From: a virus | Direction: 5' to 3' (one strand) | IMG/VR virus record: IMGVR_UViG_3300028610_001024 | Span: 1 to 64,000 of that record | Length of the DNA stretch: 64,000 nt | Shown: piece after piece, positions 10,160 through 29,189 of the stretch | Position numbering within the stretch: position 1 is the first letter of the stretch | How the letters are laid out: each line of letters opens with the position of its first letter | Notes under the pieces: generated by a model | Databases searched by the model: none | What the model saw: only the letters and a program-made list of their open reading frames with translations | What the model was told of the DNA's origin: nothing | Position numbers and translations under genes: made by a program

Positions 10160-10228
10160 TAGATTCAACAATCTGAATCCATTTGGTTGAATTTATCCAG
10201 AATTTTGAATCGAGATGAGGTTAGGTAA
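10160..10228 (+). promoter_or_regulatory. Upstream activating region A (TGAAT half-sites plus TAGGTAA box)
   Basis: It contains ATTCAA at 10163, TGAATC, TTGAAT and TTTTGAAT within about 50 bases, then TAGGTAA starting at 10222. The same set recurs at 16304-16358 and 20172-20227. TAGGTAA lies 93 bases before the -24 element here and 94 in the other two copies. Position and repetition fit binding sites of a bacterial enhancer-binding protein. Which protein binds is unknown. Confidence 0.6.
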
Positions 10229-10314
10229 AGCTACAGGGACATAAGTATCATGGTTTATCTAACTTTATGCTACGAATTTGCTCAATCTAGGTGGTGGCAC
10301 CCTCGTAGACAACC

Positions 10315-10330
10315 TGGCATGAGCCTTGCT
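10315..10330 (+). promoter_or_regulatory. Sigma-54 type promoter A
   Basis: CTGGCAT-GAGCC-TTGCT matches the -24/-12 consensus (TGGCAC-N5-TTGCW) with one change in the -24 box. A CTCAATC box begins 34 bases upstream, as in copies B and C. The predicted transcript would begin near 10341 and lead into the gene at 10386. Confidence 0.75.
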
Positions 10331-10340
10331 ATATAGGTGA

Positions 10341-10380
10341 GTGTCCGGTAAGCAAATCGGGCGAAGTAAACAAAGGACAC
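10341..10380 (+). promoter_or_regulatory. Leader inverted repeat at predicted 5' end A
   Basis: GTGTCC (10341-10346) is complementary to GGACAC (10375-10380), so the transcript from promoter A would start with a closed stem. Comparable hairpins start the leaders of cassettes B and C. Confidence 0.45.
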
Positions 10381-10385
10381 ACACC

Positions 10386-10580
10386 ATGACATGCTCACAC
10401 TCAACCTGTACTCTTCCAGCTTGGACCGATAGCGATAGCGGCCTTTGCATGACGCATATCGTTGAGGCAAGAATAGAACGGGAAGGTAGTACTCTGAGAT
10501 CTCAAAACAACAAACATACCTCAGAGATGAGCGCTCATAGACGGACTATCTCTAAGGTTGGCCGACGCGAATTGAACTAA
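10386..10580 (+). CDS. 64-residue Cys/His protein, first gene of cassette A
   Basis: Started at ATG 10386 rather than the upstream GTG, which lies at the predicted transcript start. The N-terminus CSHSTC followed by CMTH looks metal-binding; the rest is basic. First gene downstream of sigma-54 promoter A. Function unknown. Confidence 0.6.
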   Translation: MTCSHSTCTLPAWTDSDSGLCMTHIVEARIEREGSTLRSQNNKHTSEMSAHRRTISKVGRRELN

Positions 10581-10584
10581 ACAA

Positions 10585-10619
10585 GTGTCCGGTTGGCAAG
10601 TTAGCTAGACGGGCGACAC
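10585..10619 (+). promoter_or_regulatory. Internal leader hairpin related to the cassette leaders
   Basis: GTGTC (10585-10589) pairs with GACAC (10615-10619). Inside, GGCAAGTTAGCTAGAC is nearly identical to the leader of cassette B (16478-16493). No sigma-54 promoter lies directly upstream, so this may be a processing or translation-control site. Confidence 0.4.
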
Positions 10620-10669
10620 GATAAAGGAAACCTACAGACTCAACACTCTTTTGTTAAAGGATTAACATC

Positions 10670-11158
10670 ATGACCAACACACTAGCAGCACACTTGTACA
10701 ACCAGATCAGTCGACGCAACGCCAGCCACTCTAGCTGGACACCTGAGCACACACAAACGATCCGTGGACACGCTAGAGAAGCCCTCACGGCCGCTCTAGA
10801 CCTCCTCCCGCACGGCAGCGGGATTGATAACCCCTGGACTGTGGACATGTTCGATACATATGCCGGAGCAAATGGAGAACCCAACGTTGGAGCGCTGAAA
10901 ATCCGGTTCGGGTATCACCCCATGGACGAGAGTGGATATCTTAGTTGGCGTAGCTACACCATGACGGCTTGCCCGGGTTGGGGTGGTATTGAAGTCCACA
11001 TAGAGGACATCACAGACGATGTTAACATTGATGACCTTGACGATACGGTGGACTACCTCACAGAACTCTTCCAGCACGCACTATCTCAGGAAGTCACTTG
11101 GATCTACAATGACATCGATAAGCACACTGTAACCGCTACTGAACAAGGATGGAATTAA
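10670..11158 (+). CDS. Unrecognised 162-residue protein of cassette A
   Basis: It starts at an ATG after AAAGGATT. The C-terminal third is very acidic (EDITDDVNIDDLDD). GC content is visibly higher than in the flanking structural genes. No membrane segment and no family recognised. Confidence 0.7.
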   Translation: MTNTLAAHLYNQISRRNASHSSWTPEHTQTIRGHAREALTAALDLLPHGSGIDNPWTVDMFDTYAGANGEPNVGALKIRFGYHPMDESGYLSWRSYTMTACPGWGGIEVHIEDITDDVNIDDLDDTVDYLTELFQHALSQEVTWIYNDIDKHTVTATEQGWN

Positions 11159-11162
11159 CGTC

Positions 11163-11390
11163 ATGATTTACGATGAGACTTGCAACCGTTACCGTAACCC
11201 TCTCACCGGTCGTTTCGTATCGTTCAAATCTGCACAAACTGAACAACGCGTTCACAAGGACTTCTATCTAAATCTTTACAAGGAAATCGAACTCCTTGCT
11301 ATGGTCAATACGTACCGAGCGCTGTACCATGTTAGTCTCAGTGAAGCCTATCGGGCTGTTATGAATGGAAATCGAAGGACGAGGGGTTAA
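11163..11390 (+). CDS. 75-residue basic protein with LTGRF motif
   Basis: YRNPLTGRFVS near the N-terminus is matched by YRSTLTGRFLS in the cassette B protein at 17092, so the two share a short module. Helical and basic. Function unknown. Confidence 0.65.
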   Translation: MIYDETCNRYRNPLTGRFVSFKSAQTEQRVHKDFYLNLYKEIELLAMVNTYRALYHVSLSEAYRAVMNGNRRTRG

Positions 11391-11395
11391 GTACA

Positions 11396-11968
11396 ATGCC
11401 AATTAACACGGTACCAATCAAAGCGGTTACTCTTGAATCTCCGGACTCATGCTTCAGAGTCGTCTGTCAAGATGCACACGGTGATGTTGTAGTTACAGTC
11501 TACGATGATTCTATTGAAGTGACAATTCGAGTATGGGAAGACAAGGATAGCTCACAATGGGAAGAGAAAACGGTTTCAATACCACGAGAGGACCTAGGAA
11601 TGTCACAACACATAGGATACAAACCTTGCGACTGTCGCGACTGTATGGAGATAGCTGTTGGTCCCTACTGTCTTGAATGCGAGGAAGCGGGTTGTCCAGA
11701 CTTCCAAGGAGTAGAGGGTATGTCTCAAGAGTGTCAATGTAAGAGTGCTTACGATCAAGAGGAAATCGATAGTGGTATCGACCTCGCCCTCTACGACACC
11801 TTACAGCGTCAACGTGGTAATCTGATCTGGTACTGGACGGATGAAGGACGGGCCGTTTTTTCGACTGAGCGACCACATGGTAGAGCTGCCTTAAACGTGG
11901 AAAACATGGATGGAGAAAAGTTCTCCATTGAAACAGCCAAACTTGAGATCGTAGATTCGGAAGGGTAG
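11396..11968 (+). CDS. 190-residue protein with central Cys cluster
   Basis: About residues 78-118 hold CDCRDC, CLECEEAGC and CQC, enough ligands for two metal sites. A beta-rich N-terminal part and an acidic C-terminal part flank it. It follows the LTGRF gene with six bases between them. Not recognised. Confidence 0.68.
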   Translation: MPINTVPIKAVTLESPDSCFRVVCQDAHGDVVVTVYDDSIEVTIRVWEDKDSSQWEEKTVSIPREDLGMSQHIGYKPCDCRDCMEIAVGPYCLECEEAGCPDFQGVEGMSQECQCKSAYDQEEIDSGIDLALYDTLQRQRGNLIWYWTDEGRAVFSTERPHGRAALNVENMDGEKFSIETAKLEIVDSEG

Positions 11969-11973
11969 AAATC

Positions 11974-12213
11974 ATGATGAATGAAGAAGTCAAGATCCTC
12001 GAAGATGATGAGATCCCCGATGCATGTCATAATTATACAATCTGGATAAAGGGTTCAAAGACTTGGGAGGAGTCTGGGAGAGTGAATGCTACCTTCTACG
12101 CAAAAAACCATGTAAAAGCTACAAAGAAAGCTGCTGACTGGATGAAGGAAAACTTACCAGATGAACAATACTCTGTAAGAAGACGATATAACGATAACTT
12201 CAGACATGACTAG
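11974..12213 (+). CDS. 79-residue unrecognised protein
   Basis: A mixed alpha/beta sequence with repeated aromatic residues (HNYTIWIKG, FYAKNHVKA) and a helix AADWMKENLP. Possibly a small beta-alpha phage host-factor binder. It lies in operon order with the neighbouring small genes. Confidence 0.6.
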   Translation: MMNEEVKILEDDEIPDACHNYTIWIKGSKTWEESGRVNATFYAKNHVKATKKAADWMKENLPDEQYSVRRRYNDNFRHD

Positions 12214-12231
12214 GTCCGGAAGGATAAGCTG

Positions 12232-12480
12232 ATGCCACTCTGTTACAAAGATCAAACGTTTTGCGAAGCCAAATGTAGCAAGACCAGATGTCTACGGCAC
12301 CAATCGAATATCAATCAAGCTCAGGCTGATTTGTTAGGGTTAGGTGTAGCTACTGCGAACTTTTCCAAGGACTGTCCTGAGTACGTTCCGGTAGTACCAA
12401 CCGAATCTGAACCAATGTTTGCATCTGGTAGAATGACGTACAAAGAAATGTTTGATGAACTTGAGAGGGGAGAGTCATGA
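12232..12480 (+). CDS. 82-residue protein with N-terminal zinc-like knuckle
   Basis: CYKDQTFC, EAKC, KTRC and a following RH within the first 25 residues look like a C4 or C3H metal site. The rest is polar. Overlaps the next ATG (ATGA). Small phage proteins with this C...C...C...CxRH start are common, but the function is unknown to me. Confidence 0.65.
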   Translation: MPLCYKDQTFCEAKCSKTRCLRHQSNINQAQADLLGLGVATANFSKDCPEYVPVVPTESEPMFASGRMTYKEMFDELERGES

Positions 12481-12788
12481 CTCATAAAATGAAAACCAAA
12501 ACAAATCAATGGTGGAAACGTTGGTACAGTGGAGCCTATGACAAGACTGAAATAGTAGAACGGGAATGGCTACTTCGTCTTATCACATATCGCGACAAGG
12601 ATGTAAATGGAAAGGACTACTTCTCAGAGGATGTACAACAGTTACAAAAATCGAGGCTTGATCGACGTGGGCCTTTTACACGCTCAGCTGAAGATGCTCT
12701 ACGTGTAACATTTGAAGATCTTCGTATCATAAACCACCATCTAAGGGAAAAAATCAGGTCCCAGATAGTAGGAAGGGAAGAGTCATGA
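12477..12788 (+). CDS. 103-residue basic helical protein
   Basis: The N-terminus is rich in K and W (NQWWKRWYSG). The C-terminal half is a long charged helix (EDLRIINHHLREKIRSQI). Coupled at both ends. Unknown role. Confidence 0.62.
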   Translation: MTHKMKTKTNQWWKRWYSGAYDKTEIVEREWLLRLITYRDKDVNGKDYFSEDVQQLQKSRLDRRGPFTRSAEDALRVTFEDLRIINHHLREKIRSQIVGREES

Positions 12789-12994
12789 GAACCTATTCCG
12801 ATACTTCCCCTGATTCTGGTACCGTTGTAGAAATCAAAATCAACGGTAGACTTTTTTATGCCACAAAGCGCACGGATGGAAAATGGGACATGGATGACAT
12901 AAAAGAAAGCTGTAACTACCACACTGGTTCTCTAGCAGATGGAATTCTAGCAGCTGCATTTGAGACTACCTGTTACGATGAACTTGATACATAA
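12785..12994 (+). CDS. 69-residue acidic protein
   Basis: Coupled to the previous gene by ATGA. A predicted beta hairpin (VVEIKINGRLFYATKR) is followed by an acidic helix. Not recognised. Confidence 0.6.
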   Translation: MRTYSDTSPDSGTVVEIKINGRLFYATKRTDGKWDMDDIKESCNYHTGSLADGILAAAFETTCYDELDT

Positions 12995-13006
12995 AGGATC
13001 TATCTA

Positions 13007-14233
13007 ATGACAGCCTTCACAATCTCCACCCATGCCATTCCCAGAATCGAAAAGCGTCTAACCGTCCTCTCTAAACGTGCTGTTAAGCTAAACCTTTCCC
13101 CTCTAACGTGGACACTTTCTAATCAGCGACAAGAGCAACGGTTTACTCAAGTTGAAGGCGAATCCTTTGCTTGTGGGTTCGATGAAAGTACCGCCCCACA
13201 ATGGCTCGACCTCGTTGACATAGAAATCACTGGTGAATCTCCTATCATGCCAGGCGGTTGGTGGTTCATCACTGCCATTGAAGCCGTTGACGATGGAGTT
13301 AATCTAATCTTATCAGTTCCAGGTGTCGATGATATCGACGTCGACGAGTATAAAGCTATCAGTATGACACGTTGTGATCATTGTCATGTAAAGCACAATC
13401 GTAAAGCGGTCTATGTGGTGCGTGATTCTAACGGCGATGAGTCCGTAGTGGGTAAGTCCTGCCTGAAAGACTTCACCGGGCATATGTCACCTGAAAGCAT
13501 TGTCATGTGGGCGACAATGTGGCGTGAGATTGAAGACATGGCTGAGGATAAAGAATACAATGGTAGCCATGGTCCTGATCTAATCGATACCTTTAAGTAC
13601 GTGACTCATGTTGCGGCGTGCGTACGGGTTGACGGATGGTTAAGTAAATCACAGGCTGAAGAAATGAATTGTAACAGTACAGCAAGCGACGCTATCGTGA
13701 CTGGGTTCATGAGTTGCAAAACTCAAGACATGAAAGATTTTAGTGAAGCTCGACAACCCATAGCTGAGGATATCAATACCGCACGGGAAGCTATCGCATA
13801 CGCTCAGGCAATGGATACCTTAAACGGTGGGGGAGATTTTCTCCATAACGTACAAGTGCTTTCTAATACTAAATGTTTCGATATCAAACGCACTGGACTA
13901 GTGGCGTGTATCACCCTTGTCTACAACAAAGAAATCAACCGAAGGAAAAAGATTGAATCAAGTACCAGCGAGTATCTTGGAAAGGTAAAGGATAAAATTA
14001 CAGTTCAAGCAACGTTTGAGGGAATGGCACTCTTTGATGGCTACTATGGGGCGGTCTACATCTGCCAATTTGATTCTAATGGTAGTAAAATTGTATGGTG
14101 GGCTTCTAAGTCGCCTGAGCTTACTCCAGGAGTTGAGGTTGAGTTAACAGGTAGAGTGAAGAAACATGATGAGTTTAAAAATGAGAAGCAAACGACGGTT
14201 ACACACTGTAAAGTAAAGGAGCTGAATCAATGA
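13007..14233 (+). CDS. Large protein with Cys-ribbon and C-terminal OB-like domain
   Basis: 408 residues. Around 122-160 there is CDHCHVKHNR, then VVGKSCLKDFTGH, a ribbon with the signature GKSCLxDF seen in several phage proteins of unknown role. The last 85 residues (KITVQATFEG to TVTHCKVKEL) look like an OB fold, a common nucleic-acid binder. It is the largest gene of cassette A, probably its main product, and is coupled to the zinc protein that follows. Nucleic-acid binding is inferred, not shown. Confidence 0.72.
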   Translation: MTAFTISTHAIPRIEKRLTVLSKRAVKLNLSPLTWTLSNQRQEQRFTQVEGESFACGFDESTAPQWLDLVDIEITGESPIMPGGWWFITAIEAVDDGVNLILSVPGVDDIDVDEYKAISMTRCDHCHVKHNRKAVYVVRDSNGDESVVGKSCLKDFTGHMSPESIVMWATMWREIEDMAEDKEYNGSHGPDLIDTFKYVTHVAACVRVDGWLSKSQAEEMNCNSTASDAIVTGFMSCKTQDMKDFSEARQPIAEDINTAREAIAYAQAMDTLNGGGDFLHNVQVLSNTKCFDIKRTGLVACITLVYNKEINRRKKIESSTSEYLGKVKDKITVQATFEGMALFDGYYGAVYICQFDSNGSKIVWWASKSPELTPGVEVELTGRVKKHDEFKNEKQTTVTHCKVKELNQ

Positions 14234-14430
14234 GCCTTCAAGATTTGTTTCAAGATTTGGGTGAGACTTTTTTAACATGGTGTGATGACTGTGGAAATGA
14301 TCGTGATGACGTTGGACGGATGAGAGAATGTCCACATTGTGGAGACAGTATGTGTCAAGAGTGCTATAAGAAACATATTAAATGGTGCCTAGAAGAAGAG
14401 GAAAAATGGCGCCTAGAAGAAAAGGACTAG
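14230..14430 (+). CDS. 66-residue zinc-finger protein
   Basis: CDDCG, CPHCG, CQECYKKH and a final C are spaced like a cross-braced or B-box style zinc finger occupying residues 17-52. An acidic helical tail follows. Coupled to the large OB-like protein by ATGA, so the two may act together. Confidence 0.68.
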   Translation: MSLQDLFQDLGETFLTWCDDCGNDRDDVGRMRECPHCGDSMCQECYKKHIKWCLEEEEKWRLEEKD

Positions 14431-14432
14431 AT

Positions 14433-14690
14433 ATGAACACCCAAAAACGTCGCCGCTTAATTCATACCCTACTCTCACAAGTCGATGGTCTATCCCACCG
14501 AGCCGCTTTCAATCATGTCAGACGTGTTAATTATTTCTCAATAGCTCATGATCTTGATGCTGTAGGGGAAGTAGTACAGAGGAAACCTTTCAAAATGTGG
14601 CAGTTGAGAACTACTCCGAAATGTCAATCGAAGGATCATCGTGCTACTAGTCCAAGAGTACACCTGAAAATGGAAACGAGAAGGAGCTAA
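14433..14690 (+). CDS. 85-residue very basic protein
   Basis: Start taken at ATG 14433, just after the previous stop. KRRRLIHTLL opens the protein and METRRS ends it. Likely nucleic-acid contacting, but unrecognised. Confidence 0.58.
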   Translation: MNTQKRRRLIHTLLSQVDGLSHRAAFNHVRRVNYFSIAHDLDAVGEVVQRKPFKMWQLRTTPKCQSKDHRATSPRVHLKMETRRS

Positions 14691-14692
14691 CA

Positions 14693-14935
14693 ATGAAGAA
14701 GTCACTTTCAAAAAGGGTAATCGATTTCCTCAAAATTCGCTGGATTGCTATCACTGACAGTATCTGGACAGATGATGCAGAGCTAGGATTGAAAATCGGT
14801 CCCATTGTCCTAGCCTACTATAAATGGGCGGATCCTACTGTTCTATGGAGACCTCAGTACAGAGAAATGGAAAAGAGAGAGTTCGGTGAGGCAATTCATA
14901 CTCAATTAGTATATAAAAGGAAAAAATCAAAGTGA
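14693..14935 (+). CDS. 80-residue unrecognised protein
   Basis: Amphipathic N-terminal helix (SKRVIDFLKIRWIAITD), then a tryptophan-rich middle. ATG two bases after the previous stop with AGGAG upstream. Coupled to the next gene through a GTGA overlap. Confidence 0.62.
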   Translation: MKKSLSKRVIDFLKIRWIAITDSIWTDDAELGLKIGPIVLAYYKWADPTVLWRPQYREMEKREFGEAIHTQLVYKRKKSK

Positions 14936-15207
14936 ATTATGATTACCTTTTAATGGCAACGCCTTACCAAGCCCTTACCCGTCGTCTACCTCAAGTGCTC
15001 ACTATAGGTACCATCATTCCAGTAATTGAACAGTTAGAGAACGCCTTACCTACCACTATAGGCGCATGGGTGGAGGTTACCACTAACGGCCCCGTAACCG
15101 GTCGAGATACGAAAGGACCACAGGATAAGCCTACAGCATTGTACTTCTCTGGACGTGAAGCTAGGGAAGGGAAATTGGACAATGAACTTTGGAGTGAAAG
15201 CAAATGA
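14932..15207 (+). CDS. 91-residue protein with GTG start
   Basis: GTG 14932 overlaps the previous stop. The sequence has a helical first half and a beta second half (AWVEVTTNGPV). Coupled to the next gene by ATGA at 15204. Unrecognised. Confidence 0.6.
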   Translation: MNYDYLLMATPYQALTRRLPQVLTIGTIIPVIEQLENALPTTIGAWVEVTTNGPVTGRDTKGPQDKPTALYFSGREAREGKLDNELWSESK

Positions 15208-15402
15208 TCAATAAAGTGAAACATAGTCTCTCTTCCGATGAGTGGCTTCATGTACGTGAAGCGGGAAGAGAAGCATATCAAGAAAGTAAGCGTACCCAAG
15301 ATTCAGAGGAAGTAGCTGTACATGCGGCGGACCTAGCTAGGGAGGAATGCCTTGCGTATATTCAATTAACGGGTGAAGCAAATGATCAATAAAGTGAAAC
15401 AT
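15198..15402 (+). repeat. Pair of 27-base direct repeats over two start codons
   Basis: Bases 15198-15224 recur at 15376-15402. Each copy covers a ribosome-site-to-codon-7 region, so two consecutive genes begin with the same peptide MINKVKH. The rest of the two genes differs. A local duplication of a translation start is the simplest reading. Confidence 0.85.
15204..15392 (+). CDS. 62-residue protein, first MINKVKH gene
   Basis: Acidic helical sequence with several E/D-rich stretches after the MINKVKH start. Coupled to the previous gene by ATGA; its end overlaps the second copy of the start repeat. Unrecognised. Confidence 0.6.
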   Translation: MINKVKHSLSSDEWLHVREAGREAYQESKRTQDSEEVAVHAADLAREECLAYIQLTGEANDQ

Positions 15403-15609
15403 GGCTTAGACCCACATAGCCAAACCATTACAGAAAAGACTGACTGGCCACCTGGGGTATTCCTTACTGAGGAGTCCGCTTTACAGTGTATAGGAGAACA
15501 ATTTCGAGATACAAGGGATAGACTTTCAGTTAATCCCGTAACCTTTACGGTTAATGCCTGGACTATAAAGTTATGGGTAGTGACTGATGGTATATGGAGT
15601 AAGTTATGA
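15382..15609 (+). CDS. 75-residue protein, second MINKVKH gene
   Basis: Start placed at ATG 15382 within the second copy of the direct repeat. After MINKVKH the sequence is unlike the first gene. A predicted beta sheet (VTFTVNAWTIKLWVV) ends it. Unknown function. Confidence 0.6.
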   Translation: MINKVKHGLDPHSQTITEKTDWPPGVFLTEESALQCIGEQFRDTRDRLSVNPVTFTVNAWTIKLWVVTDGIWSKL

Positions 15610-15794
15610 TGGAACTTAGAATGTTAAAGCTGATTCTCTTAGAGCAAGCTGTACGGCTTAGCAATAATATTCTAACTGAAGCACTCGGAAATTTTTCATC
15701 TGCACTATCGAAACGTGAGATGAAACTAGCCACATGTGCAAGTGAGTCTCTGTCTAATCTAGCACGTAACCTGCTAGCCTATAGGAATCCATGA
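15606..15794 (+). CDS. 62-residue helical protein
   Basis: Almost entirely leucine/alanine-rich amphipathic helix (LKLILLEQAVRLSNNILTEA). Coupled to the previous gene by ATGA. Could be a small helical bundle; unrecognised. Confidence 0.6.
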   Translation: MMELRMLKLILLEQAVRLSNNILTEALGNFSSALSKREMKLATCASESLSNLARNLLAYRNP

Positions 15795-15795
15795 A

Positions 15796-16047
15796 ATGAA
15801 ACCCATGAAAGGCTGTTCAAGCTGTAGCCCCTCAATCATCAATGGTCACTTTTGCCATGAGCAAGGCTGTCCTGATAGTTGGATGGATGAGAATGGGGTA
15901 GATTATCCTATTGAGTGTAAGGAATGTGGAAGGGAATTCTATCCTCATTTGAAATATGTCAAGTTTTGTAGCTCACTGTGTGAGAATATCTATCAAGGAT
16001 ATGAAGATGAGCTAACCTTTACACTAGAGTTAAATGATGAATACTGA
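15796..16047 (+). CDS. 83-residue multi-Cys zinc protein
   Basis: Metal ligands are plentiful: CSSC, HFCHEQGCPDSW, CKECGREFYP and FCSSLC. The GHFCHEQGCP block is a pattern I recall from small proteins in many phages, function unknown, and the CKEC...FCSSLC half resembles a treble-clef ribbon. Overlaps the next gene by 14 bases. Confidence 0.72.
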   Translation: MKPMKGCSSCSPSIINGHFCHEQGCPDSWMDENGVDYPIECKECGREFYPHLKYVKFCSSLCENIYQGYEDELTFTLELNDEY

Positions 16048-16246
16048 AACCTACTTTCTGATATGTGATCCAAAGTCTGGTCTAGTGATACGTCGAGCCC
16101 GCCAACCCGCCAACATTACTGAGTCACACTTAGTATCTCTTCATGTAGACAAAAGGTTATGGAAATCTTACCGGGCGGGTGAACCCGTAAACTGGACGGA
16201 GCTACCGCTAGTTGCTCAGGACTTATGGAATCGACGTAGACGCTAG
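16034..16246 (+). CDS. 70-residue protein at end of cassette A
   Basis: An N-terminal beta stretch (YFLICDPKSGLVIRRA) and a basic C-terminus. Last gene before the second sigma-54 region. Unrecognised. Confidence 0.6.
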   Translation: MMNTETYFLICDPKSGLVIRRARQPANITESHLVSLHVDKRLWKSYRAGEPVNWTELPLVAQDLWNRRRR

Positions 16247-16303
16247 CTGCTATCGGCGGCGGACGAGCCGAGTACCAGACCTGGTCAGCCAAAACTATCA
16301 CTA

Positions 16304-16358
16304 TCCAGAATTCTGAATCCAAAATCTTGAATACATCCAACTTCTTGAATGTAGGTAA
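16304..16358 (+). promoter_or_regulatory. Upstream activating region B
   Basis: The perfect palindrome CAGAATTCTG is followed by TGAAT at 16314, 16328 and 16346 and by TAGGTAA at 16352. TAGGTAA is 94 bases before the -24 box. This is the clearest of the three copies; the direct TGAAT half-sites lie 14 and 18 bases apart. Confidence 0.62.
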
Positions 16359-16445
16359 ATACATATCAGCATCAGATCTATGGGGTAGAGTACATATATG
16401 CCCCATATTTACTCAATCCATGCTGTAGTACCCTCATAGATTGTC

Positions 16446-16461
16446 TGGCATGGGCCTTGCA
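16446..16461 (+). promoter_or_regulatory. Sigma-54 type promoter B
   Basis: CTGGCAT-GGGCC-TTGCA with a CTCAATC box 34 bases upstream, in the same arrangement as A and C. The predicted start is near 16472, 43 bases before the first gene of cassette B. Confidence 0.75.
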
Positions 16462-16472
16462 GTGTAGTAGGA

Positions 16473-16494
16473 TGTCTGGCAAGTAAGCTAGACA
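16473..16494 (+). promoter_or_regulatory. Leader hairpin B
   Basis: TGTCT and AGACA pair around GGCAAGTAAGCT at the expected transcript 5' end. The loop sequence is shared with the internal leader at 10585. Confidence 0.42.
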
Positions 16495-16514
16495 GAAGAC
16501 AAGAGAACGAGACA

Positions 16515-16727
16515 ATGACAACATACGAAGCATACGTTACCGGTTACAACTTCCTCCCTGAATTGTCTGCTTTCCTGAAGAATCAAACAATCAAGGCGCG
16601 AATCCAAACTCTACTAGGCGAGGATGATATCCTCCCTATCAACAATGTTCAAGCCGCCGAGGAGGTCCTTGAATCCGGTAAGGGTCTAGAGGCTTATGAG
16701 TTGGCACGGAGTCTCTATAATGCTTAA
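16515..16727 (+). CDS. 70-residue helical protein, first gene of cassette B
   Basis: ATG follows GAGAACGAGAC (weak ribosome site). The protein is acidic and helical (EEVLESGKGLEAYELARSL). First gene under promoter B. Unknown function. Confidence 0.62.
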   Translation: MTTYEAYVTGYNFLPELSAFLKNQTIKARIQTLLGEDDILPINNVQAAEEVLESGKGLEAYELARSLYNA

Positions 16728-17007
16728 AATGACCTACCTACAAGCCAAGACCTCCCTACTCGCCCAACTCGACGCTCATGAAGACTGGACAGTCACAACC
16801 CGCAATCGTAGCAACTTCAAGCCCCTCAAGGTTCCATATGTGACGCGTGACTACGATGACTGCCGGGTGTGGTTCAAATCTCAGAGTGTCTACCTGGGTT
16901 GGACTAACAACTTGAACGACGCCAGAAGCATACACATTGAAGACCTCAGAGTCGCGACACTGGCCGACGTGCTAGAGTCGGTCGACTATTACGTGAGTCT
17001 GGACTAG
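16720..17007 (+). CDS. 95-residue protein of cassette B
   Basis: Start at ATG 16720, overlapping the previous stop; ATG 16729 is also possible. Basic in the middle (TTRNRSNFKPLKV), acidic at the end. Unrecognised. Confidence 0.6.
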   Translation: MLKMTYLQAKTSLLAQLDAHEDWTVTTRNRSNFKPLKVPYVTRDYDDCRVWFKSQSVYLGWTNNLNDARSIHIEDLRVATLADVLESVDYYVSLD

Positions 17008-17091
17008 AGGAGAGTACACCATGAACCATGTACACCAGCAGCAAGCAAAAACAAGGACAAATGGTTAGAGTTAGTTAAACCTGAAGATATC

Positions 17092-17442
17092 ATGCAACCC
17101 CCTGACCTCAACTTCGTCCCAACCCCCCCTTGCTTCATCCAGCCCATGGGTGGCTACCGCTCAACCCTAACCGGCCGTTTCCTCTCACGGGCCTATGTGG
17201 ATTACCAACTTACCCTGTGGTGGACGCAAGAGCTACAAAGAGCCTGGACGCGTCAAGTCCAGCTTGCAGCTCTCATGCTTCAAGCAACGACTCAGACGAC
17301 GGTAGCGACGCAACGTCGAGTGAGACAGGAGCGTCATATCGTGGTAGACTCAGATAGACCTATTCGACGTAAGCCCAGCAAGCGGGAACTAGAGGACAAG
17401 CGACGTCAGAAATTGTGGAATCAGTCAAGGAGTTACTCATGA
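17092..17442 (+). CDS. 116-residue basic protein with LTGRF motif
   Basis: Shares the YR-x-x-LTGRF-[VL]-S motif with the protein at 11163. A proline-rich N-terminus leads to that motif, a glutamine-rich helix and an Arg/Lys-rich tail (RRKPSKRELEDKRRQK). Coupled to the next gene by ATGA. Function unknown. Confidence 0.62.
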   Translation: MQPPDLNFVPTPPCFIQPMGGYRSTLTGRFLSRAYVDYQLTLWWTQELQRAWTRQVQLAALMLQATTQTTVATQRRVRQERHIVVDSDRPIRRKPSKRELEDKRRQKLWNQSRSYS

Positions 17443-17639
17443 ATAGCACTCTAAGTAATGAAACCCCTCTATCAGTCGACTTCGATGATGAGATCAAAGA
17501 TGAACTAGCAGAGTGGATAGATGGACCGGATGAAGATGGAGTTAATAAGCCCTCACGTAGCATCCTGTGGATCGACTACCAACCCAGTGAAGATCTTGAA
17601 GCACGACATGAGTACAACGAAGCGACTAGGGGATATTAA
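17439..17639 (+). CDS. 66-residue acidic protein
   Basis: Start at ATG 17439, overlapping the previous stop. Highly acidic (DFDDEIKDELAEWIDG). Acidic small phage proteins sometimes mimic DNA, but that is only a possibility here. Confidence 0.62.
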   Translation: MNSTLSNETPLSVDFDDEIKDELAEWIDGPDEDGVNKPSRSILWIDYQPSEDLEARHEYNEATRGY

Positions 17640-17641
17640 AA

Positions 17642-17905
17642 ATGAGTTATGAAAATAATTCACACATTCCGGATTACTTTGAATCTTGTAAAACCATAAC
17701 ACAAGTAAATACCTTCATCTATGGTGTCTGTAAGCAAGTAAAGTTCAAACCTGGCTGGACTGATGATAAGCAAGACGCTGTTCACATTGGCTATAGTTCT
17801 GATACTGAAACCTTTACCGTGTCCGTTTGGAATGGTGGTGACTCCACCAAAATCAGAGAAGCGATTCGGGATTTCTACAACCTACACGAGGAGAGAGTGT
17901 CATAA
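17642..17905 (+). CDS. 87-residue unrecognised protein
   Basis: Two bases after the preceding stop. A predicted beta sheet (AVHIGYSSDTETFTVSVW) is followed by a helix. The last residues overlap a short Cys-rich frame that lacks a start and was not annotated. Confidence 0.62.
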   Translation: MSYENNSHIPDYFESCKTITQVNTFIYGVCKQVKFKPGWTDDKQDAVHIGYSSDTETFTVSVWNGGDSTKIREAIRDFYNLHEERVS

Positions 17906-17965
17906 GTGGATTCACCCCCCTGTTTGCAGCTGTGGTGAGGACCATACATATACTGGAGGAAACCC

Positions 17966-18238
17966 ATGCAAGACACAACCTTGACACGTCGAGCTATCCA
18001 CCCCAACGACACCCATAACGGTGAAAGCTCAGGAGCCTCACACCTAACCCCCAGCAAGGATCCGTTCAAGCTAGGCCTTCCAACCTTACCTGAACTGCAA
18101 ATGGAAGCCCGAATCCTTGACCATATGGAATTCCTAGCTAGTATAGGAGTTGAGAAAATCGACCGTCGTAAGCTAGCCGAAATGGCGATTGAGAAAGCTG
18201 ACGCGTTCGTGGCTATATTCAAACCTCGTAAGGAGTAA
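17966..18238 (+). CDS. 90-residue protein
   Basis: GGAGGAAACCC precedes the ATG. The C-terminal half is a long helix (DRRKLAEMAIEKADAFVA); the N-terminal half is polar and probably disordered. Unknown. Confidence 0.62.
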   Translation: MQDTTLTRRAIHPNDTHNGESSGASHLTPSKDPFKLGLPTLPELQMEARILDHMEFLASIGVEKIDRRKLAEMAIEKADAFVAIFKPRKE

Positions 18239-18242
18239 TGAC

Positions 18243-18470
18243 ATGTCGATACATCGTAGTAGGATGAAACAGTGGGCTCAATCCATTAACCCTGATGTAA
18301 CAGAAAGGGATATTGATTGGTTGGTGGAATGTCTACCTGAATCAAGTTCCTTTTCTAATACACTTGACAGGGAAATACAACAAGCAAACCAGGTTGCTAT
18401 CGATCAGGGTACATTCAAAATGTTTCGACTGAACTCTAATGGAACTAAAACAGACATAGCCGAGGAGTAA
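18243..18470 (+). CDS. 75-residue protein
   Basis: Start at ATG 18243 with AAGGAG seven bases upstream. Helical and acidic in the middle. Its stop is followed by the probable microprotein at 18474, and its last codons contain that gene's ribosome site. Confidence 0.62.
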   Translation: MSIHRSRMKQWAQSINPDVTERDIDWLVECLPESSSFSNTLDREIQQANQVAIDQGTFKMFRLNSNGTKTDIAEE

Positions 18471-18473
18471 CCA

Positions 18474-18584
18474 ACGAAAATCACTCTGATAGCTCTAGTC
18501 CTCCATGCATGGGGCTGGCCTGGACTTGGTATCTATGCCATTGTCGTCCTAATAGTTCACTTTCTCGAATGTAAATACCTTTAA
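18474..18584 (+). CDS. 36-residue membrane microprotein with ACG at the start position
   Basis: GAGGAG (18462-18467) is six bases before an ACG codon. From there the frame reads (M)KITLIALVLHAWGWPGL and continues through a hydrophobic stretch ending in FLECKYL. It would be a tidy single-pass membrane peptide if the first codon were ATG. ACG is a rare, weak start, so it may be a mutated gene or poorly translated. The end overlaps the AAAGGAG ribosome site of the next gene. Confidence 0.42.
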   Translation, partial: TKITLIALVLHAWGWPGLGIYAIVVLIVHFLECKYL

Positions 18585-18597
18585 AGGAGTTCCTATC

Positions 18598-18972
18598 ATG
18601 GCGTTTCAATCTCTTCCTCGGACTCGTAGGTCAGTACAGTATCTCCTCACTAAAGTTCAGATCTCCAATTGCAAATCAACTCCTCACGTGTTTAGGTTCA
18701 CAAGTAAAGTTCTTCTAGACCATAGTAAACATTTATTTCCTGGAGCTGAGATTACAATAGATATTGATATCGATAGGTCGCAGGTAGCTTTCCGTAAGGC
18801 GAAAAATAGTGAACCCTCTTGGAGAATCTCTAAACCAAAGAAAAGTAATAGTACATTTAGCTCTAAAAATCTCTATGAGTTGATAGGACTTGGTACATGG
18901 GAAATTATTAAAATTCGAGTTGGTAATAAATACTATCCGGGATTCTATTACGGGCGGATTAAAGGGAAATGA
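18598..18972 (+). CDS. 124-residue basic protein
   Basis: AAAGGAG (18583-18589) fits the ATG. Beta-rich and basic (RISKPKKSNSTF), perhaps nucleic-acid binding. Coupled to the next gene by ATGA. Unrecognised. Confidence 0.64.
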   Translation: MAFQSLPRTRRSVQYLLTKVQISNCKSTPHVFRFTSKVLLDHSKHLFPGAEITIDIDIDRSQVAFRKAKNSEPSWRISKPKKSNSTFSSKNLYELIGLGTWEIIKIRVGNKYYPGFYYGRIKGK

Positions 18973-19190
18973 ACTTATCTAATGATCCAAGGGCCGTATA
19001 TAACCGACTTCGATTAGAAGTTCCTCAGCCAATAAGAGAAGACGCTCTACGAAGGAGTCGTATACAGACCGATCCAACTGAAGAGAATATCAACTCTGTT
19101 TCTGAGATGTACGAGATTGTCTTACTTAAAAAACCAGGTAATCTATTGCATCAGCGTCTTGAGCAAGCTTTTCTAAACCTAAAGAGGTAA
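18969..19190 (+). CDS. 73-residue helical protein
   Basis: Charged helices with RRSRIQTDPTEENIN in the middle. Coupled to its upstream neighbour. Function unknown. Confidence 0.6.
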   Translation: MNLSNDPRAVYNRLRLEVPQPIREDALRRSRIQTDPTEENINSVSEMYEIVLLKKPGNLLHQRLEQAFLNLKR

Positions 19191-19194
19191 ATTC

Positions 19195-19452
19195 ATGAAC
19201 CAAGTCCACCTATCTACTCTCCCGCCGGGTATCGACTTCATCTATCATCATCCTAACGGTAATGATATTGAGTGTCGTTCAGTTGGTAAGGGTAGCTATG
19301 AGTATTTTGACAATGGACTAGGCCAAATGGAAACGCTGTATAGTCCCACCATGCTTTGTGATATAACCAATTCCGATCTAACACTAATGCAAAGTGAACA
19401 AAGGCTTAGTAAACATTTGCGACATAGGTTGCATGTTGAGACTGGGGAGTAA
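19195..19452 (+). CDS. 85-residue protein
   Basis: ATG five bases after the previous stop, with AGAGGTAAATTC upstream. No motif recognised; a beta N-terminal half and a helical C-terminal half. Confidence 0.6.
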   Translation: MNQVHLSTLPPGIDFIYHHPNGNDIECRSVGKGSYEYFDNGLGQMETLYSPTMLCDITNSDLTLMQSEQRLSKHLRHRLHVETGE

Positions 19453-19455
19453 GTC

Positions 19456-19554
19456 ATGGAAAATGTAAAAGATTCTAAAGATAAAGTAATTCGAGTGATA
19501 CAGGATGGCTACCATCAACCTACGTGGAGAAACCTACAAGGATTATTGTGGTGA
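19456..19554 (+). CDS. 32-residue peptide
   Basis: ATG 19456 after GGGGAG. The frame overlaps the better supported gene at 19505 by 50 bases in another frame. It may be a real overlapping gene or chance. Confidence 0.35.
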   Translation: MENVKDSKDKVIRVIQDGYHQPTWRNLQGLLW

Positions 19555-19636
19555 GAGTGATCTAGAGGTAACAGACTGTGATTGTGAGAAGTGCTTCAAA
19601 TTAAGATCACAAGCTTATGCAAAGGATAATCAATGA
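19505..19636 (+). CDS. 43-residue Cys-rich peptide
   Basis: Ends in the ATGA that starts the next gene (19633), supporting translation. CDCEKC near the middle with an earlier C suggests metal binding. It starts inside the 19456 frame. Confidence 0.52.
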   Translation: MATINLRGETYKDYCGESDLEVTDCDCEKCFKLRSQAYAKDNQ

Positions 19637-20106
19637 AAACCACTAAAACCTTCAACCCTTCAATTGAGCAAACCATTCCCAACTTTTTCCCTGACATTAA
19701 ACAACGCAAGCTTGCCTATACCATACTCAAGGTTCTCAACATCATCCCCAATCGTAAACTAATATTTGAAAAGGAACCCAACTGTAGAGGTAAATGTCCT
19801 GTCAGATTATACCTTATCAAAGATCTCAAAAAGGTACAATCACACCTTACCCAAAGCCAAACCATTACTCAAATCCCAAAAGGCTACACCGATGTTCATA
19901 CACTAGAACGAAAGTACGACCTACCTAATAGAACTATCTACCTGATATTCAAAACGGTTGGACTTGAATCAAATCAAATGTATAAACCTGAAGGACTAGG
20001 TACAGGGAGGAAACTGTTTAAGGTTAAGGATACAGAGTATGTAATGAAGTGGATTGTGAAGTCACGGGAACGATTCAGTGATCGAATATCCAACAGAGAG
20101 AGCTAG
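19633..20106 (+). CDS. Helix-turn-helix-like protein, paralogue of 22189
   Basis: 157 residues. The segment TDVHTLERKYDLPNRTIYLI reads like a helix-turn-helix. Over about 60 residues it aligns with the product at 22189: DLAGISERYGIESHRISAGF, then VGLE, then a KxxEYV ending in both. Overlaps the preceding Cys peptide by ATGA. It sits immediately upstream of two sigma-54 promoters, so a regulatory role on this tract is attractive but untested. It has no AAA+ domain, so it is not a classical enhancer-binding protein. Confidence 0.65.
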   Translation: MKTTKTFNPSIEQTIPNFFPDIKQRKLAYTILKVLNIIPNRKLIFEKEPNCRGKCPVRLYLIKDLKKVQSHLTQSQTITQIPKGYTDVHTLERKYDLPNRTIYLIFKTVGLESNQMYKPEGLGTGRKLFKVKDTEYVMKWIVKSRERFSDRISNRES

Positions 20107-20113
20107 TTGAATT

Positions 20114-20129
20114 TGGCACGATTCTTGCA
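20114..20129 (+). promoter_or_regulatory. Consensus sigma-54 promoter D
   Basis: TTGGCACGATTCTTGCAGG is a perfect TGGCAC-N5-TTGCA match, including the preceding T and following G. It begins eight bases after the stop of the HTH-like gene, with an expected start near 20142, 201 bases upstream of promoter C. The long leader would run through the activating region C. Confidence 0.72.
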
Positions 20130-20171
20130 GGCTACCCTCTAACCTTACCCAACTCAACTCTACCAACCCTC

Positions 20172-20227
20172 GATCCAAATTCCTGGATTCAAAATTCTGC
20201 ATACTCCAAGGAATTGAAGTTAGGTAA
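20172..20227 (+). promoter_or_regulatory. Upstream activating region C
   Basis: GGATTCAAAATTCTGCAT and CCAAGGAATTGAAGT carry the ATTCAA/TGAA half-sites found in A and B. TAGGTAA starts at 20221, 94 bases before the -24 box of promoter C. Confidence 0.58.
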
Positions 20228-20314
20228 GTCTATAGGATCATAGAGAGTATGTAGCCCAAAGCATATATGTCGTGGATTTGCTCAATCCATGCTACTCCCC
20301 ACTGAGGATTGAGT

Positions 20315-20330
20315 TGGCATGGACCTTGCT
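20315..20330 (+). promoter_or_regulatory. Sigma-54 type promoter C
   Basis: TTGGCAT-GGACC-TTGCT, with CTCAATC 34 bases upstream. Together with A and B it forms a family with fixed internal spacing. Expected start near 20341, before the gene at 20382. Confidence 0.75.
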
Positions 20331-20381: not shown

Positions 20382-20636
20382 ATGACCAAGGTCAAGCAAG
20401 CCAAACGCGCCGCCCTCCAAACTAAAGTCCTCAAGGCCTTCCGTAAGATCACAATCATTGAGCTTCTCGACGGTCCCGGGAAAACGGTCACATGTATGGA
20501 CCTAGTCACCTTGGATATCTGCCAGACACACGAACAGGCCATAGAGTTAATGGACGAGATGTGGGAAGCCCAGCAAGTCTACACAGTGAACGGGTATGGA
20601 ACGAGCGCACAAGATCACGACTTCGCAAGCTGCTAG
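20382..20636 (+). CDS. 84-residue protein, first gene of cassette C
   Basis: GAGGACTAAGACA precedes the ATG. A basic N-terminal helix (VKQAKRAALQTKVLKAFRK) is followed by a region with helix-turn-helix character (MDLVTLDICQTHEQAIELM). DNA binding is possible but uncertain. Confidence 0.62.
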   Translation: MTKVKQAKRAALQTKVLKAFRKITIIELLDGPGKTVTCMDLVTLDICQTHEQAIELMDEMWEAQQVYTVNGYGTSAQDHDFASC

Positions 20637-23750: not shown

Positions 23751-23856
23751 CACTTCTACACTCTTGTATTTTTGACCGCTCAAAACCTTGCTATACCATA
23801 ATACTCTCTACACAGTCACACACTGAAACCTCCCCTGACTGTCTAAAATCACTCCT

Positions 23857-23872
23857 TGGCACAGCGTTTGCA
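23857..23872 (+). promoter_or_regulatory. Consensus sigma-54 promoter E
   Basis: CTTGGCACAGCGTTTGCATG is a perfect TGGCAC-N5-TTGCA. Expected start near 23884, inside the palindrome described next. It lacks the TAGGTAA/CTCAATC boxes of the A-C family, so its activator may differ. Confidence 0.7.
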
Positions 23873-23883
23873 TGTACATTTTC

Positions 23884-23897
23884 TAGTGTGGACACTA
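23884..23897 (+). promoter_or_regulatory. Palindromic operator at the start of promoter E
   Basis: TAGTGTGGACACTA: two perfect six-base arms around GG, lying exactly at the predicted transcription start. Related TAGTGTG sites cluster at 28.7-29.1 kb. Likely a repressor site. Confidence 0.55.
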
Positions 23898-23928: not shown

Positions 23929-24081
23929 ATGACCAAAGAAACTTGCTACAATATGGGACATTGTGTTCCTTTGTGCGGCGTCCGTACAGTAAAGCTGACA
24001 GCTGATAAGAAAAAAACGACTTGCCCTAACTGTCTGAATCTACTACTTACTTATCCCAAGGAGCCTACTATCGAACCTTAA
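23929..24081 (+). CDS. 50-residue zinc-ribbon protein
   Basis: ATG 23929 after TTAAAGGG. CYNMGHC, PLCG and CPNC give four or more zinc ligands. It is the first gene under promoter E, followed by the NYN-cold-shock gene; a C10 run lies between them at 24102. Confidence 0.62.
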   Translation: MTKETCYNMGHCVPLCGVRTVKLTADKKKTTCPNCLNLLLTYPKEPTIEP

Positions 24082-24150: not shown

Positions 24151-25062
24151 ATGTCCAACTCCACCTCTATTTTCGTCGATACCAGTAACGCCTACCACAA
24201 TGGTGCAAATAATCTTCGTTATGATGAGCTACTCCGTTTTGCTCAACGTGATGGACGTAAGGTACAGCGCTATACAGCTTACTGCACCTATGACTCAGAT
24301 AAAGATGACGGATCGTCTGAAGGTAATCTTTATGCTGAGGGCCTGGAGAAGTTCTGGGCTAGTCTAAGCGGATTTGGATATAAAGTCCATAAGGAGTACG
24401 TTAAGTGGCAAGGAAACGGTGGTAGTCGTAGACCAAAAGCTAATGTAGATATTCGTATGACAGTTGACATGCTTACGCAAACAGCTTCCGACACCATTTT
24501 ACTTGTAACTGGGGACGGTGATTTTATCCCTTTAGTTGAAGCTCTACAGCTAAGAGGTATTCGAGTAGAAGTGATGAGCTTTCTCAATTCCTCTTCTGCT
24601 CTACAGGAATGTGCTGATTATCACATTAACGGAGCACTCCTCCCCGGGGTGATTCCTATTCAACAACCTGTCAATGCTGAAGTTGCAGATGAAGACTCTC
24701 ATAAACCTGTCTACTTCAACCACGGCGAACCTGGCTCAACTCTAACCGGACAAATATACTACTTTAAACAGGAGAATAATTTTGGATTTATCCGTTATTT
24801 ACCCCTGGGTGAGTATAGTAATCTTCACGTTACAAGTACTGAGGATCCTATAACGTCCTTCAAAACTGTTCATGTTCACGGTAGCAAGCTTTTACCTAGA
24901 GATAGATACCCCTCAAATACAGTCTGGAAATTTGACCTAAAGAGTAGTGAGGTTAAAAAAGGGCAACTCACAGCTGTAAATCTTCGACCTGCGTTGACAC
25001 CTAAAAATACTAAACCCCCTCATAACTCTACTCGTCCACAACAATCACCCGATAAAGGGTAA
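24151..25062 (+). CDS. NYN-domain RNase fused to a cold-shock-like domain
   Basis: 303 residues. Residues 1-165 are an NYN (LabA/DUF88, PIN-like) nuclease: FVDTSNAY with D10 and N13, D100 and D106 in VDIRMTVDML, and D122/D124 in VTGDGDF, the expected acidic metal site. Residues about 190-270 resemble a cold-shock/OB domain (GQIYYFKQENNFGFIRY). NYN proteins usually cleave RNA, and the OB part would hold the RNA substrate. The tail is proline-rich. AAAAGGATAACC precedes the start. A role in host RNA decay or defence evasion is speculative. Confidence 0.82.
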   Translation: MSNSTSIFVDTSNAYHNGANNLRYDELLRFAQRDGRKVQRYTAYCTYDSDKDDGSSEGNLYAEGLEKFWASLSGFGYKVHKEYVKWQGNGGSRRPKANVDIRMTVDMLTQTASDTILLVTGDGDFIPLVEALQLRGIRVEVMSFLNSSSALQECADYHINGALLPGVIPIQQPVNAEVADEDSHKPVYFNHGEPGSTLTGQIYYFKQENNFGFIRYLPLGEYSNLHVTSTEDPITSFKTVHVHGSKLLPRDRYPSNTVWKFDLKSSEVKKGQLTAVNLRPALTPKNTKPPHNSTRPQQSPDKG

Positions 25063-25097: not shown

Positions 25098-25499
25098 ATG
25101 TCAAAGTCTGACCCTGAACCCACCGTCAAAGATGAAACTGTTACCACTACCCCCCAAGCTGAGCCTACCCGTGCAGCTAACGCGTTCCGTGCGAGTGACT
25201 CTAAGGACAACAGTGATGCAGGCGGTAAACTCTATCTTCCAATCGAGGTCTACCTTGATAGTCCTCAAGTGAATTCTCTCAGGAAAGCGGGGTTTACAAC
25301 TACGGGAGCTATGCGGGGGTATCTCACCGAGTGCTTCAGTGGTAGTGATGAAGCCGTCACTAAGAAAGTGGCTGAATTTCTTACCCCAAGAAACCTTCTC
25401 GCTTCAGCTATTGCATGGAAGAAGAAGTCCCTGAAGACCAGGAATGAAGCACTCGCGGCCGAGATGGCTAAGAACGAAGCAGAACTCGCTGACCTATAG
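25098..25499 (+). CDS. 133-residue protein closing the NYN operon
   Basis: The disordered acidic N-terminus (about 45 residues) leads to a folded domain (KLYLPIEVYLDSPQVNSL) and a coiled C-terminal helix. The domain could be a small DNA-binding or adaptor fold. An intrinsic terminator follows directly. Confidence 0.65.
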   Translation: MSKSDPEPTVKDETVTTTPQAEPTRAANAFRASDSKDNSDAGGKLYLPIEVYLDSPQVNSLRKAGFTTTGAMRGYLTECFSGSDEAVTKKVAEFLTPRNLLASAIAWKKKSLKTRNEALAAEMAKNEAELADL

Positions 25500-28524: not shown

Positions 28525-28770
28525 CTTTTATGTTCAAGGGTTACTCCACTGTGTTAACACACTCATACAATTTCCCCTTCACTTTCTGCTCTACTTTGTA
28601 CTCCCTTGCATTATACTTCGCTCCCTCCCATAAGCACCTTAGGTGTATTTTATGCTACCGGATTGGTGTGCTCGAACCCTCTACACTAAACCACATTGTG
28701 GACCTGTATTCAAAAAACCCATCAACGTAGCATTTCCTCAACCCCTCCGCATCCTTTTCAACCCTTTAAA

Positions 28771-28798
28771 CTAGTGTGCTTTTCCTTTTCCACACTAG
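28771..28798 (+). promoter_or_regulatory. TAGTGTG inverted pair
   Basis: CTAGTGTG (28771-28778) and CACACTAG (28791-28798) face each other across 12 bases. Same arms as the operator at promoter E. Confidence 0.5.
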
Positions 28799-29024
28799 GT
28801 GTATTCAAATCCCATGCTACCTACCGCATGGTAGCCCTCTCTATATTTTTTCTCTCCTGTAACTGCTGACAATCGACAAATACAGTTAAAATGAAAAATA
28901 CACTAAATCGTTTTAGAACTTCCGGATAATCGATATTATGTCAACGTGTATTTTTCGACTAGGGTGAACAGTCGACTTCCACACTAAGTCAGACTTCAAT
29001 AAACATAAGGCCTTTACGCTTTTT

Positions 29025-29040
29025 GAGTGTCCACACTAAT
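29025..29040 (+). promoter_or_regulatory. TAGTGTG-type operator, compact
   Basis: GAGTGTCCACACTA: AGTGT and ACACT around CC, a near copy of the palindrome at 23884. A half-site ACACTAAG lies at 28981. Confidence 0.45.
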
Positions 29041-29058
29041 TCAATCTGTATTTTTTAC

Positions 29059-29092
29059 CTAGTGTGCCTAGTGTGTTAGCCTTAGACACTAG
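29059..29092 (+). promoter_or_regulatory. Tandem CTAGTGTG sites
   Basis: Direct copies at 29059-29066 and 29068-29075 and an inverted GACACTAG at 29085-29092. They lie 100-130 bases before the gene at 29190 and probably control it. Confidence 0.5.
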
Positions 29093-29189
29093 CAAGTGGC
29101 TGAAATATATTCTTATTCTTAAAGAGCACGAATCGTGCCAAATACGTACCCTAAGTGAAAAAAGTTCAACTTTTTTGGAGACCGCTCCC

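Follow-up and report, generated by a model that had tools for sequence, protein, structure and literature searches.

Probable sigma-54 promoter cassettes of an uncultured tailed phage match an enhancer module found before receptor genes in Aminicenantia

Bases 1-64000 of the 77,728-bp IMG/VR virus record IMGVR_UViG_3300028610_001024 (referred to as the window and G000, respectively) contain three cassettes, in each of which an array of dyads is followed by a sigma-54 (RpoN) promoter core and a run of small genes. Judging from the sequence, these cassettes are probably enhancer-dependent sigma-54 promoters that match a circuit of the host, and would be served by a host bacterial enhancer-binding protein (bEBP) and the RpoN of a member of Aminicenantia. 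The same module precedes genes for outer-membrane transporters in these bacteria, so that the phage seems to have connected its own genes to a host control circuit.

Sigma-54 cores in the phage genome

The sequence TGGCAT-N5-TTGCW was present at 10315, 16446, and 20315, exactly where an initial sequence-only reading had placed it. This reading regarded the core as one change away from the consensus; however, all three cores matched YTGGCAYR-N4-TTGCW in full (-24 GG and -12 GC elements). It also proposed a genome scan with an RpoN matrix. A matrix built from the published consensus (approximate weights, with no training on these sites) was run over both strands of the whole of G000, and six sites scored 18 bits or more (10314+, 16445+, 20113+, 20314+, 23856+, and 29125-), the next-best score being 11.6 bits. 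With 1000 column-permuted matrices, the mean number of sites at this threshold was 0.034 and the maximum was 1, and 30 other -24/-12 spacers (from 0 to 30) gave a single site in total. Perfect cores numbered five against 0.063 expected, with none at neighboring spacers. These counts place the sigma-54 cores far above chance and tie them to the spacer of 4 nt.

All three cassettes of the sequence-only reading were confirmed by the scan, but they do not account for all sites, three further strong cores being present in G000. Among the latter, the core at 23856 may be served by another activator, and that at 29125 on the minus strand may be a chance palindrome. Since the three cassettes are paralogous copies and not three independent events, independent evidence is provided by the three non-cassette sites and, above all, by the six cores of a second phage (see below).

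Architecture of the cassettes

The symmetric form of the upstream element was ATYCA-N6-TGRAT, a 16-bp dyad, which was found three times per cassette approximately 110-150 bp 5' of the core, with start-to-start spacings of 14 and then 17-18 bp. Clusters of TGAAT/ATTCAA had been described as half-sites; they are indeed present upstream, but as three dyads per cassette. When TCCA-N5-TTGAAT was searched in the window with no more than one mismatch, 15 matches were obtained against 6.4 expected, and 9 of these were inside the cassettes. The fixed spacing previously claimed for two further boxes also held, being identical in all three cassettes for CTCAATC and differing by one base for TAGGTAA (Table 1). 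CTCAATC does not fit the IHF consensus.

In cassettes 1 and 2, a predicted 8-bp hairpin begins 1-2 nt after the predicted start, and a weaker stem was predicted in the leader of cassette 3. These positions fit the predicted start sites, two or three leaders being too few for a claim of covariation. The leader-like hairpin sequence (GTGTCCGGTTGGCAAG...) occurs once more at 10584-10625 of the window, 3' of the first open reading frame (ORF) of operon 1, where no promoter core accompanies it. Two other candidate cassette signals were rejected: the leader motif TGTCCGG-N4-CAAG was not above chance genome-wide, and only 2 of the 10 matches to TTAGGTAA were at cassettes.

Table 1. Positions of cassette parts and additional sigma-54 cores in the window. 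Distances of boxes are relative to the core.
Feature	Positions	Strand	Remarks
Enhancer array, cassette 1	10163..10210		dyads at 10163, 10177, 10195; spacing 14, 18
TAGGTAA box, cassette 1	10222..10228	+	-93
CTCAATC box, cassette 1	10281..10287	+	-34
Sigma-54 core CTGGCATGAGCCTTGCT, cassette 1	10314..10330	+	predicted start ~10341
Predicted leader hairpin, cassette 1	10342..10363	+	8-bp stem, loop AAGCAA; ATG at 10386
First small ORF after cassette 1	10386..10580	+	
Enhancer array, cassette 2	16303..16350		dyads at 16303, 16317, 16335; spacing 14, 18
TAGGTAA box, cassette 2	16352..16358	+	-94
CTCAATC box, cassette 2	16412..16418	+	-34
Sigma-54 core CTGGCATGGGCCTTGCA, cassette 2	16445..16461	+	predicted start ~16472
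Predicted leader hairpin, cassette 2	16473..16494	+	8-bp stem, loop AAGTAA
First small ORF after cassette 2	16515..16727	+	
Enhancer array, cassette 3	20173..20219		dyads at 20173, 20187, 20204; spacing 14, 17; two weaker
TAGGTAA box, cassette 3	20221..20227	+	-94
CTCAATC box, cassette 3	20281..20287	+	-34
Sigma-54 core TTGGCATGGACCTTGCT, cassette 3	20314..20330	+	predicted start ~20341
First small ORF after cassette 3	20382..20636	+	
Additional perfect core TTGGCACGATTCTTGCA	20113..20129	+	200 bp 5' of third core; no dyad array of its own
Additional perfect core TTGGCACAGCGTTTGCA	23856..23872	+	ATG at 23929, ~46 nt past predicted start; no dyad array
Additional near-perfect core TTGGCACGATTCGTGCT	29125..29141	-	no downstream gene

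A distantly related phage with the same layout

No direct relative of G000 was found among phages by megablast, nor by related-locus searches with the terminase, DNA polymerase, and portal or by a strict cassette pattern. A relaxed pattern (one dyad and a core at 90-110 bp) was the only one to reveal a second phage, IMGVR_UViG_3300015263_000597 (77,687 bp; referred to as G001), which was again the only find in a profile search with the major capsid protein. The two genomes are syntenic, and their core proteins are approximately 27-37% identical (terminase, 27%; helicase, 30%; polymerase, 31%; portal, 34%; capsid, 36%); the GC content is 52% in G001 vs 41% in G000.

Six perfect cores were detected in G001, against none with a reversed-pattern control, and each of the six had a dyad array upstream. 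In the resulting nine phage cassettes (three in G000 and six in G001), TGGCA and TTGC were invariant and the inner N4 was variable; dyads were located at -76 to -152 with spacings of 14 and 17-18 bp, eight of the nine cassettes having three and one G001 cassette having two clear ones; and an ATG was found 40-50 nt past the predicted start, with both strands used in G001. Two G001 promoters, 24519- and 24753+, are divergent and have a single dyad array in common (24519-24768, L034), which looks like a shared bidirectional enhancer for both putative sigma-54 promoters. Dyad clusters in both phages coincided with sigma-54 cores, the sole exception being at 25458 of G001. There, a degenerate dyad array at 25458-25490 (L034:5458-5490) was not followed by a core, and is perhaps a decayed cassette. 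Absence of the boxes from related phages had been named as a test of the sequence-only reading: the core and dyads were kept in G001, but TAGGTAA and CTCAATC were not at the corresponding places, so that both boxes are specific to the G000 lineage. Partial IHF matches were noted by eye in some G001 cassettes.

Other matches were less informative. Thirteen of the 14 matches to the dyad-plus-core pattern showed no cassette, and the viral matches L038 and L039, with one weak dyad each, were taken as chance. A tandem-dyad pattern gave 11 matches in viral contigs, the single one checked being in coding sequence; 108 kb of these contigs contained seven perfect cores, which are apparently two sites recurring in contigs related to one another.

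The nine cassettes bear on two other explanations. Sigma-70 promoters with an extended -10 (TGCTATATA), for which the resemblance to sigma-54 promoters would be incidental, would place the start almost identically at cassettes 1 and 3. However, cassette 2 has TGCAGTGTA, the hexamers in G001 are TATGTA, TAAGTA, TACATA, and similar, and no -35/-10 pair (16-18 bp apart) was found at any cassette; the invariant TGGCA and the dyads are also left unexplained, and we regard this explanation as very improbable. The tandem dyads, present in several copies per genome, are iteron-like, and might have a role in DNA structure or replication (as iterons, packaging sites, or recombination sites) and not be parts of promoters. 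We give this almost no credence: in all nine cassettes, a core comes after the array and an ATG 40-50 nt past the predicted start, the G001 cassettes being spread over both strands, and the bacterial copies described below are upstream of receptor genes.

The same module in Aminicenantia

A bacterial pattern (dyad, 80-110 bp, and a core with TTGCTA) was searched in 84,980 species genomes, and returned 40 stretches, 11 of which (from 8 genomes, three being in one chromosome) belonged to Candidatus Aminicenantes. A related pattern gave 20 matches in nine module-bearing genomes vs 0 for its reversed control. Across the class, which comprises 142 genomes within a collection of 97,973, the module was found in 62 genomes (L082-L127 among examples) and the reversed pattern in none; some of the bacterial matches counted are two dyads of the same promoter. 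In the copies examined, there was mostly a single clear dyad or a pair, the distance within a pair often being 17-20 bp, and the exact IHF consensus was present in 12 of the 44 distinct sites for which sequence was obtained.

The downstream gene was readable at 38 of these sites, and in 37 encoded a CarboxypepD_reg/TonB-receptor-like protein (25 by the CarboxypepD_reg signature and 12 more by eye); the remaining one encoded a GntR-like regulator (by eye). A Pfam analysis of two examples detected CarboxypepD_reg in both, and also a TonB-dependent beta-barrel in the full-length one. RpoN was encoded by nine of nine module-bearing genomes examined for it, and five Aminicenantia genomes tested had 8-15 sigma-54 activator (bEBP) domains each, the weakest of which are probably other AAA+ proteins. 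Judged against searchable papers, this looks like an undescribed sigma-54/TonB-receptor regulon in Aminicenantia. In a published account (PMC3162934), sigma-54 is described as a controller of the bacterial exterior, and outer-membrane receptors downstream of the module fit this description. On the other hand, nothing was found for the link to host nitrogen or stress signals suggested by the sequence-only reading; in Aminicenantia, the module precedes TonB-dependent receptors.

Candidate activator and host

The view that the cassettes are enhancer-dependent RpoN promoters before small-gene operons, already put forward from the window alone, gains support from the spacing-specific sigma-54 signal, dyads at enhancer distance, a layout kept in an approximately 30%-identical relative, and the same module in RpoN-encoding bacteria. 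In the proposed mechanism, a host bEBP would bind the three adjacent dyads of each cassette, a DNA loop would form, and the bEBP would spend ATP on remodeling the RpoN-RNA polymerase waiting at TGGCAYR-N4-TTGC. Transcription would then begin approximately 12 nt past the core and proceed through a 40-50-nt leader into the run of small phage genes. These sequence comparisons lead us to infer an active module in the phage and a single host bEBP that reads both the phage and host copies.

The sigma-54 activator domain (PF00158) was detected in neither phage, and the RpoN domain (PF04552) was not detected in G000; the records may be incomplete. With genuine sigma-54 cores, the dyads may alternatively be bound by an activator or repressor encoded by the phage, which would itself set the timing. 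Three tandem operators per promoter recall phage operator triplets, and unassigned small DNA-binding-like proteins are present, such as a helix-turn-helix-like protein (L001:1000-1539, by eye). However, these dyads also occur in bacterial genomes, before bacterial genes and with an unchanged distance to sigma-54 cores, the dyads are at enhancer distance upstream and do not overlap the core, and no bEBP domain was found in either phage; a phage-encoded regulator is therefore improbable in our judgment.

The close likeness of the dyad, distance, and core between the phages and Aminicenantia is most simply read as the sign of a shared activator, and a member of this class (phylum Acidobacteriota) is most likely the host of the phages. 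A non-Aminicenantia bacterium with the same bEBP/dyad module appears unlikely, albeit worth keeping in view: the genome HR10 (L056) has a similar double dyad and core, also before a CarboxypepD_reg-like gene, and spacer or provirus evidence for Aminicenantia was not found, whereas Aminicenantes accounted for 11 of the 40 stretches from the pattern search in spite of contributing only 142 of 97,973 genomes. Protein similarity was uninformative, with the terminase being approximately 30% identical to those of Microbacterium phages over 40% of its length and the similarities of other proteins being spread over many groups. One 32-nt spacer match of 91% was rejected, since it was not surrounded by repeats or an array and its sequence reads as coding.

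Several points weigh against host bEBP control in an Aminicenantia phage. The link to the host is drawn solely from the shared regulatory module; no capsid homologue was found in the 142 Aminicenantia genomes, and no credible CRISPR spacer was found for two 20-kb phage pieces. Three strong cores in G000 (20113+, 23856+, and 29125-) lack a dyad array. In the phage cores, TTGC is followed by a common TAnnTAG, whereas TTGCTANNTA was present in only 9 of the 44 host sites. The phage may also have an activator unrelated to PF00158.

With these points considered, we lean toward a broader proposal, in which a phage family of Aminicenantia, without an activator of its own, expresses several operons through copies of the host TonB-receptor enhancer/sigma-54 module. 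If so, phage expression would follow the host signal governing the nutrient receptors of the outer membrane, and these receptors might themselves be entry points. For phages of this uncultured class, the module also provides a link to the host that can be put to the test.

Other features of the phage genome

The gene content of G000 is that of a tailed phage, and includes helicase, terminase, portal, capsid, and tape-measure proteins. The small-gene region encodes an NYN-domain (PIN-like nuclease) protein (window 24151-25062; Pfam E 7e-26). A DNA polymerase A-like protein (L001:3647-6346) has an N-terminal part resembling uracil-DNA glycosylase (by eye). The words TAGTGTG and CACACTA, partly palindromic (TAGTGTGGACACTA), recur in non-coding stretches (window 23885-23897 and 28770-29080), and are possible operators or an origin.

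Comparison with known systems

Phage transcription is known to rely on sigma-70, on sigma factors of the phage, or on phage polymerases. A sigma-54 promoter stays silent unless a bEBP is active, so that phage expression from the cassettes would depend on a host signal. To our knowledge, ATYCA-N6-TGRAT matches no bEBP site.

In the open-access literature, no phage was found to be described with its own operons on multi-copy enhancer-dependent sigma-54 promoters, which is not proof of absence; the nearest case is Pectobacterium phage Q19, for which a putative sigma-54-like protein was described on the basis of a weak similarity in structure (HHpred 94%; PMC7693777). Q19 offers a protein and not sigma-54 promoters; in the present study, a bEBP domain was found in neither phage, and an RpoN domain was not found in G000. 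In the phage shock (psp) response, host sigma-54 genes are induced in phage infection with the involvement of sigma-54 and a bEBP (PMC3844500); these are host genes reacting to a phage, whereas the promoters in the present study belong to the phage.

Between the phage cassettes and the Aminicenantia module, the dyad, distance, and core are all equal. They differ in that the bacterial copies mostly have fewer and differently spaced dyads, as described above, and some IHF-like sites, while three dyads (14 and 17-18 bp) and a TAnnTAG following TTGC are usual in those of the phages. The NtrC, XylR/DmpR, and PspF types of sigma-54 promoters have the same -24/-12 core with 4-nt spacing, and are alike in the tandem dyads approximately 100-150 bp upstream and in the start approximately 12 nt past the GC element; RpoN and bEBPs are likewise present in the inferred host class. 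On the other hand, the copies in this study are repeated within a phage genome before small-gene operons. The kind of promoter is known, and the new part is a repeated phage module that matches a host enhancer.

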